From: Methylococcaceae bacterium | GTDB taxonomy: Bacteria; Pseudomonadota; Gammaproteobacteria; Methylococcales; Methylomonadaceae | DNA: 32,452 bases | NCBI GenBank assembly: GCA_030627265.1 | Contig: DAOUSK010000013.1 | Coordinates: 1 to 32,452, forward strand | Reading direction: 5' to 3' | Shown here: piece after piece, positions 16,774 to 19,123 of the stretch | Layout of the letters: each line of letters starts with the position of its first letter | Position numbering within the stretch: position 1 is the stretch's first letter | Notes under the pieces: generated by a model | Seen by the model: only the letters and a program-made list of their open reading frames with translations | The model's database searches: none | What the model was told of the DNA's origin: nothing | Translations under genes and position numbers: made by a program

Positions 16774-18093
16774 ATGACAAAAGCAGCAAAAATTGGATTT
16801 ATTAGCTTAGGGTGCCCTAAAGCATTGGTTGATAGCGAACGCATTTTAACGAAACTCCGCTCAGAAGGTTATGAAGTCGCACCTGATTATGAAGGTGCAG
16901 ATATGGTAGTGGTTAATACCTGTGGTTTTATTGATTCAGCCGTAGAAGAATCATTAGATAGCATCGGTGAAGCGCTTAATAAAAATGGCAAAGTGATTGT
17001 GACGGGCTGCTTGGGTGCAAGACCTGAGGAAATTTTAGAAAGACATCCGCAAGTCTTGGAGATTACTGGCGCGCATGCGTTAGAAGAAGTAGTCGCAGCG
17101 GTGCATAAACACTTACCGCCTGCACATGATCCGTTTATCAGTTTAGTGCCACCACAAGGGATTAAATTAACCCCGAAACATTACGCTTATTTAAAAATCT
17201 CAGAAGGCTGTAATCATCGCTGTAGTTTTTGCATTATTCCTTCCATGCGGGGTGATTTAGTTAGCCGCCCAATTAATAGTGTGCTCGCTGAAGCGAAACG
17301 CCTTGCCGATGCAGGTGTAAAAGAATTATTGGTGGTTTCGCAAGATACCAGTGCTTACGGTTTAGATTTGAAATACGCTGAGTATGACTGGCAAGGTAAA
17401 GCTTTGCGTACGCGTTTTTATGATTTAGCTGAAGCTTTGGGTGATCTGGGTATTTGGGTGCGTATGCATTATGTTTACCCTTATCCACACGTTGATGAAG
17501 TCGTGCCTTTAATGGCAGCGGGTAAAATTTTACCGTACTTGGATATTCCTTTCCAACATGCCAATACGCGCATATTAAAGTTAATGAAGCGCCCAGCCGC
17601 AACAGAAAATAACTTGGAACGCATTAAAGCATGGCGCAAAATTTGCCCTGACCTGATTATTCGAAGTACCTTTATTGTTGGTTTTCCTGGAGAAACAGAA
17701 GAAGAATTCCAAGAATTATTAGATTTTTTAACCGACGCTCAACTAGATCGTGTTGGTTGTTTTGCTTATTCACCCGTTAAAGGTGCTGCGGCGAATGAGT
17801 TGCCTGATCCAATTCCTGAGTCTATTCAGCAAGAACGCTTAGAACGTTTTATGGCGCATCAAGCGGTTATTAGTGCAGCAAGGTTGCAGCAACGCGTTGG
17901 GCAAATCGAACAAGTGATTATTGATGAAGTGGTTGAAGAGGGTGCAGTTGCTCGTAGTATGGCAGATGCACCAGAGATTGATGGCCAAGTTTTTATTGAT
18001 GGTGCAACCCATTTAAAAGTAGGTGATTTAGTCACTGTAGAAATAGAAGAAGCGGATGATTATGATGTGTGGGGGCGTTTATATCAATCATAA
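16774..18093 (+). CDS. rimO: Ribosomal protein S12 methylthiotransferase RimO
   Basis: [18 protein letters not shown], radical [25 protein letters not shown]-terminal TRAM domain. Confidence 0.97.
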
Positions 18094-18120
18094 TCCTTCA
18101 TGGTGAGTTGCTTAAGTTAA

Positions 18121-18271
18121 GAGGCTGTGAAAACATTCAAGAATAACCTGTAAAAAACAGGTTTCGTAGGTTGGGCTGAGCTTGCGAAGCCCAACAATCA
18201 ATGGCTTCTCTAGCATCAGATGTTGGGCTTCATGCTTCAGCCCAACCTACGCATAATACTTTCACAGCCTC
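18121..18271. mobile_element. MITE-like element with 12-bp perfect TIRs, flanked by TAA direct repeats
   Basis: GAGGCTGTGAAA (18121-18132) / TTTCACAGCCTC (18260-18271), extended 17-bp ends match at 15/17; TAA at 18118-18120 and 18272-18274; no transposase inside. Confidence 0.75.
18165..18251. repeat. Inverted pair of GTAG-type REP-like units
   Basis: CGTAGGTTGGGCTGAGCTTGCGAAGCCCAACA (18165-18196) and near-perfect inverse TGTTGGGCTTCATGCTTCAGCCCAACCTACG (18221-18251); each unit is GTAG plus an imperfect palindrome. Confidence 0.8.
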
Positions 18272-18367
18272 TAAAGCCAGCGTACAAACGCTTGGGCTTG
18301 CTATAAGCTCGAAAACATCAATACAAAATGCTAAAATTTACACAGCTAAACAATTTAGAGAGAGATC

Positions 18368-19123
18368 ATGGCAGGACATAGTAAGTGGGCTAATATTAAG
18401 CACCGTAAAGCTGGGCAAGATGCCAAGCGCGGAAAGTTATTTACCAAGTTAATTCGTGAAATTACCGTTGCTGCAAAAGGAGGCGGTGATATTGCGAATA
18501 ACCCAAGTTTACGTGCCGCTGTTGATAAAGCATTAGGCGCAAATATGAAGCGCGATACCGTAGAAAATACCATTAAAAAAGCCACCGGCAATGTGGAAGG
18601 TGTGAACTACGAAGAAGTCCGCTATGAAGGTTATGGCTCGGGTGGTATTGCTGTTATGGTTGATTGTCTGACCGATAACCGTAATCGTACCGTTGCTGAA
18701 GTACGCCATGCTTTTTCTAAAGCAGGTGGAAATTTAGGCACCGATGGTTCTGTTGCTTATATGTTTAATAAAGTAGGCATCATTAGTTATAGCCCAGAAG
18801 TGAATGAAGATGAAGTCATGGAGGCTGCTTTAGAATCAGGTGCTGAAGATGTGATTACACATGAGGATGGCTCTATTGATGTAATGACTGACCCTGACGA
18901 CTACTTAACGGTTAAAGATGCAATGATAGCAGCAGGGTTTGAGCCAGAAGCGGCTGAAGTCACTATGCAAGCAGATTTACAAGTCGCATTAAATGTAACC
19001 GATGCAGAAAAAGTATTACGTCTAGTCGATGTGTTGGAAGATTTAGATGATGTGCAAAGTGTTTATTCTAATGCTGATATCAGCGAAGCAGTGATGCTAG
19101 AACTAGAAGAACTTGGTGGCTAG
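18368..19123 (+). CDS. yebC: YebC/PmpR family DNA-binding/translation regulatory protein
   Basis: [32 protein letters not shown] signature; upstream of ruvC. Confidence 0.96.

Follow-up and report, generated by a model that had tools for sequence, protein, structure and literature searches.

A MITE with a REP-doublet body and IS1182-type ends in the rimO–yebC gap of a Methylococcaceae bacterium

The window, i.e. the whole stretch of 32,452 nucleotides analysed here, contains a tightly folded inverted repeat between two genes, which raises the question of whether this structure belongs to its neighbours or is a mobile element and, in the latter case, which enzyme mobilises it and what it chooses as a target. 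The 151-bp element (positions 18121–18271) is intergenic, lying 27 bp 3′ of rimO (16774–18093) and 96 bp 5′ of yebC (18368–19123). The two genes, named from their Pfam domains, are on the same strand.

Anatomy and copies of the element

A sequence-only reading of this region had described inverted ends identical at 15 of 17 positions with TAA outside them and no room for a transposase. All of this was confirmed: the outer 12 bases of the ends match perfectly, both outer edges directly abut TAA, and the element, too short for a transposase, holds no transposase-sized ORF. That reading had recognised neither the REP doublet in the interior nor the use of palindromes as insertion sites. The family consensus of the 17-bp terminal inverted repeat is GAGRCTGTGAAAGTATT; the component features are given in Table 1. 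The predicted RNA fold of the element has an energy of −82.5 kcal/mol (z −10.8). The subterminal hairpin is weakly preserved among the other copies, with 47.7% of cells paired. An Rfam identity was rejected, the only match being a below-threshold one of miRNA type that reflects the hairpin alone, and an 83-aa ORF that overlaps both the element and the yebC start was treated as chance.

Table 1. Components of the element and its flanks, in window coordinates
Feature	Positions	Strand	Sequence or remark
Target duplication, left	18117–18120		TTAA
Terminal inverted repeat, left	18121–18137	+	GAGGCTGTGAAAACATT
Small subterminal hairpin, AACCTG..CAGGTT, in the longer left arm	18145–18163	+	
REP 1, palindrome with GTAG tag	18166–18196	+	GTAGGTTGGGCTGAGCTTGCGAAGCCCAACA
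REP 2, inverted copy; pairs with REP 1 as REP doublet (REPIN)	18221–18250	−	
Terminal inverted repeat, right	18255–18271	−	GAGGCTGTGAAAGTATT (read on the − strand)
Target duplication, right	18272–18275		TAAA, 3/4 bases as in left copy
Right flank	18272–18301	+	TAAAGCCAGCG..., like one arm of GCTGGCTTTAGCC-type palindrome

The draft genome of the host comprises 2.3 Mb in 182 contigs and is about 91.5% complete. BLAST retrieved from it near-full copies of ∼150 bp with both ends at C88, C144, C10, C124, C4 and C6; a further copy, at C146, is interrupted by the contig end, so that the draft holds approximately seven near-full copies (85–94% identity), in addition to assorted truncated ones. The end motif, with at most one mismatch, matched 43 times in the 2.3 Mb, compared to no match for the reversed control, so that the recurrence of the element greatly exceeds what chance would give. 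Full-length copies are frequent in the same-genus genomes G002, G007, G013 and G014 and were also found in G009, and a more diverged full-length copy is present in G008, again of the same genus. Outside the genus, matches are confined to the interior core (element positions about 48–133). With its inverted ends, no transposase gene and many copies at unrelated sites, the element is a MITE.

Two variants were encountered among these copies. A copy from G013 (L105, 548–699) apparently has the REP core inverted relative to the outer arms. In G009, three MITE copies (L132, L135 and L136) are interrupted within their first REP region by an IS110-family element, which apparently uses the MITE-carried REP as its target; these 1.46-kb and 2.6-kb 'elements' were set aside as MITEs with nested IS110.

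Transposase partner and target sites

The 17-bp ends were listed across the same-genus genomes, and the G009 pairs at an IS-like distance were retrieved. Eight transposase-bearing elements with these ends, 1.69–2.81 kb in size, were collected (L130, L131, L133, L134, L139, L212, L231 and L266). The transposase belongs to the IS1182 family in all eight, the MITEs with nested IS110 insertions being excluded; three of the eight, L212, L231 and L266, come from other genome contigs. Every transposase-bearing element found with both ends thus carries an IS1182 transposase, and the 17-bp ends of the window element match theirs. The G009 transposases, in which DUF772 and DDE domains were recognised, have NF033551 as their best match; the copies are partly broken, and each protein falls slightly below the whole-protein cut-off of NF033551 because of its broken frame. 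In G013, the same ends bound a 541-aa open frame for a 49% identical transposase. No match to the IS1182 transposase was found in the host assembly itself, and the partner therefore lies in the ∼9% of that genome not covered by the assembly or is no longer present.

The duplication produced on insertion was assessed on 128 distinct end pairs, among which those of L163 and L004 are probably chance pairs, with the right flanks re-paired in 500 rounds as a control. The flanks agree over 4 bp in 75 of the 128 pairs, compared to 5.9 expected by re-pairing (maximum 14). Agreement over exactly 3 bp was found in 15 pairs, i.e. the 4-bp class outnumbers the 3-bp class five to one, and the 3-bp duplications are mostly other than TNA (GGA, TCC, AGA). 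In 36 pairs there is no exact repeat of 3–5 bp; some of these have decayed and others may be false pairs. The duplication of the window copy is read at 4 bp, TTAA/TAAA with one mismatch, TAA being only part of it.

In the 4-bp set, G and C precede and G and C follow the duplicated bases, which thereby form the centre of position-specific GC-N4-GC palindromes. At least five contiguous stem pairs surround the duplication in 20 of the 75 pairs, whereas re-pairing gives 2.9 and at most 9. Because some palindrome families recur in several of the pairs, the sites represent separate insertions, but their target sequences are not independent. Hairpin targets are exemplified by GCAATAGC-TAAA-GCTATTGC and TCCCACGC-TGGA-GCGTGGGA. 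As the flanks of these pairs form contiguous stems around the duplication, the duplicated bases correspond to the hairpin loop. The small 3-bp class includes TTCCCACGC-GGA-GCGTGGGAA, with a loop of three bases, suggesting that the length of the duplication follows that of the loop. In the host genome, the targets contain TTTA in a short local palindrome, GGC-TTTA-GCC, which is situated within an arm of a longer hairpin and outside its terminal loop.

Three of the target palindromes are REPs flanking RAYT genes. In G007, the palindrome GCAATAGCTTTAGCTATTGC occurs ∼52 times, in part as an array to either side of a RAYT gene. In the host genome, the C68 RAYT gene lies between GCTGGCTTYAGCCTGC hairpins, which are also found dispersed. 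The RAYT gene of G006 is flanked by GTAGGAGGGGCTTTAGCCGCGAC, the palindrome that holds element insertions in G014. Target palindromes free of insertions are abundant. The C68 locus (L060, 1321–1848) encodes a RAYT-type Y1 transposase and has GCTGGCTTCAGCCTGC hairpins on both sides (−51 kcal/mol), which are apparently the cognate REPs of this RAYT.

REP-doublet body and the rimO–yebC site

The body of the element (18166–18250) consists of two inverted palindromes with GTAG tags. In 15 diverse copies, the REP stems are paired in 94–98% of cells, with double-sided changes, and in the whole structure 19 cells are changed on both sides, compared to 8.9 after shuffling. The same REP flanks a RAYT gene in the same-genus G014 (L294) and in the order-level relative G026 (L295). 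With its two inverted GTAG-tagged REPs, the body is a REPIN as this term is used in PMC3116915. In the stretches read around the host's own RAYT genes, the interior REP was not seen beside them. The C68 and C41 RAYT genes were both rejected as its source: the palindrome on the flanks of the former is another one, and the surroundings of the latter contain no such REP.

Other elements with the same ends hold different bodies, several of which are other palindromes. An interior hairpin with z < −3 was found in 11 of 18 sequence groups, one of the 11 (L163) being probably a chance pair. Distinct interior palindromes within the same IS1182-type ends were observed in L168, L173, L179, L187, L196, L230, L253, L261 and L270; GTCATTCCCGCGAAGGCGGGAATCC, CCCCTCCTTATCAAGGAGGGG and other GTAG-tagged REPs are examples.

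Given such a body, the element might be a REPIN moved by a RAYT, its outer ends being merely adjoining sequence. The doublet is indeed cognate to RAYT genes of relatives, and the core-only matches outside the genus (query positions 48–133) are in keeping with such a history. However, the duplication falls precisely outside the outer ends, and the same ends bound both IS1182 elements and MITEs with unrelated interiors, which makes movement by a RAYT alone improbable.

It could also be argued that the element is a fixed RNA structure of rimO–yebC maintained by selection, namely a terminator or an mRNA-stability hairpin, as the extreme hairpin energy reported above and the common orientation of the neighbouring genes would suggest. 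In the close relative G017 (RimO 96% identical), however, the rimO–yebC gap aligns without the element, from which it follows that this is not a fixed regulatory structure. The element is likewise absent just upstream of yebC in G015, where no rimO match was found, and was not seen upstream of yebC in the other relatives compared. Furthermore, it is present at unrelated sites elsewhere, and the terminator reading was rejected since the T-tract is absent. We therefore consider a selected RNA structure very unlikely; a neutral insertion into intergenic DNA is the most likely explanation of the element at rimO–yebC, with secondary effects on expression being possible.

The comparison with a close relative, proposed in the sequence-only reading in search of an empty site, thus revealed the expected absence of the element in G017, but not a clean site with a single duplication, as about 60 bp of the element's flanks are missing from that gap as well. 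The right flank TAAAGCCAGCG, also absent from G017, resembles an arm of the GCTGGCTTTAGCC-type palindrome in which further copies of the host genome are inserted, and the left flank of the window copy no longer mirrors the right one. The match of the right flank to a palindrome arm makes it probable that the element inserted into a palindrome of this kind, itself a newcomer at rimO–yebC, of which the left half has decayed. In several other relatives (L159, L160, L162, L163, L156 and L158), complete or half palindromes of the GTAGGCTTTAGCCTAC type are located just upstream of yebC, and this gap is therefore a recurrent home of hairpin repeats.

The reading initially proposed for the window was correct in that the element is non-autonomous, of DDE type, bounded by inverted repeats and present in many copies, further ones occurring in the host genome as it had anticipated, but the family is IS1182, not IS5, and the duplication is 4 bp in length rather than a 3-bp TNA. 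Assignment to the IS1031 group of the IS5 family, with a transposase of that family acting from elsewhere in the genome, agrees with TAA on both sides and with the 3-bp repeats of the minor class, but is hardly tenable, as none of the elements found with these ends belongs to IS5, every transposase-bearing one being IS1182, and the duplications are predominantly of 4 bp, the 3-bp ones being mainly non-TNA.

Proposed insertion route and known systems

The ends, the 4-bp duplications, the target symmetry, the REP-doublet body and the absence of the element in a relative are observed directly. Alongside them, sequence comparison renders it highly probable that the feature is a 151-bp IS1182-family MITE with a REP-doublet body, mobilised in trans and inserted at the centre of a palindrome. 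An IS1182 transposase would act in trans on the MITE ends and transfer them to both strands of the target, at the edges of a hairpin loop or at a palindrome centre, and gap repair would then duplicate the loop bases. The REP doublet would be cargo that became enclosed by two IS1182 ends, and it may or may not still be a substrate for a RAYT.

More tentatively, the data may reflect a branch of IS1182 elements, mainly from Gammaproteobacteria and largely from Methylococcales, that recognises hairpin loops and not a sequence, with the loop duplicated and the stem kept, and whose MITEs repeatedly package dispersed palindromes, REPINs among others. As its MITEs would package such palindromes, each insertion would use up one hairpin landing site and plant new ones. 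If so, two unrelated enzymes could perhaps move the same element, namely a DDE transposase through its ends and a RAYT through its core. The element links MITEs and REPINs, small bacterial repeat classes that are usually treated apart, and provides a ready test case of whether two unrelated transposases can spread one short element.

IS1182-derived MITEs are known: MITEPye1 of Paracoccus yeei, which folds as a long hairpin (PMC11578231), and the ISMac2-type MITEs of Methanosarcina acetivorans, of which a 160-bp one has 4-bp direct repeats (PMC3852290). Like the present element, they are gene-less and possess IS1182-like ends and direct repeats; unlike it, in the parts of these two reports considered here, they are described with neither a REP-doublet body nor insertion into REPs or hairpin centres. 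For the IS1182 family, Siguier et al. are cited in PMC5678879 as mentioning palindrome targets, without details, and the present collection adds many natural insertion sites to this little-documented behaviour. The staphylococcal IS1272, also of the IS1182 family, chooses hairpins regardless of their primary sequence, but replaces the stem-loop without a duplication (PMC5678879, PMC4923244), whereas the present element leaves the stem in place and duplicates the loop, an outcome drawn only as hypothetical pathway c in PMC5678879.

The body of the element shares with REPINs and RAYTs the two inverted GTAG-tagged palindromes, the short spacer and the REP flanking RAYT genes (PMC3116915, PMC2817692, PMC3733652), but here DDE-transposon ends, flanked by target duplications, enclose the doublet. 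Insertion sequences targeting REPs include ISPsy8, ISPa11, ISPpu9/10, ISRm22 and IS1397 (PMC1525189). ISPsy8, like the element, inserts into a REP at its symmetry axis, with a repeat of 3 bp; the families treated in that study are IS3, IS110, IS4, IS256 and IS5, IS1182 and MITEs being unmentioned there. In the open-access library searched, no MITE with a REPIN as its body was described. IS1182 MITEs, REPINs and insertion of IS elements into REPs are each already known, and it is their combination in one element that looks new.
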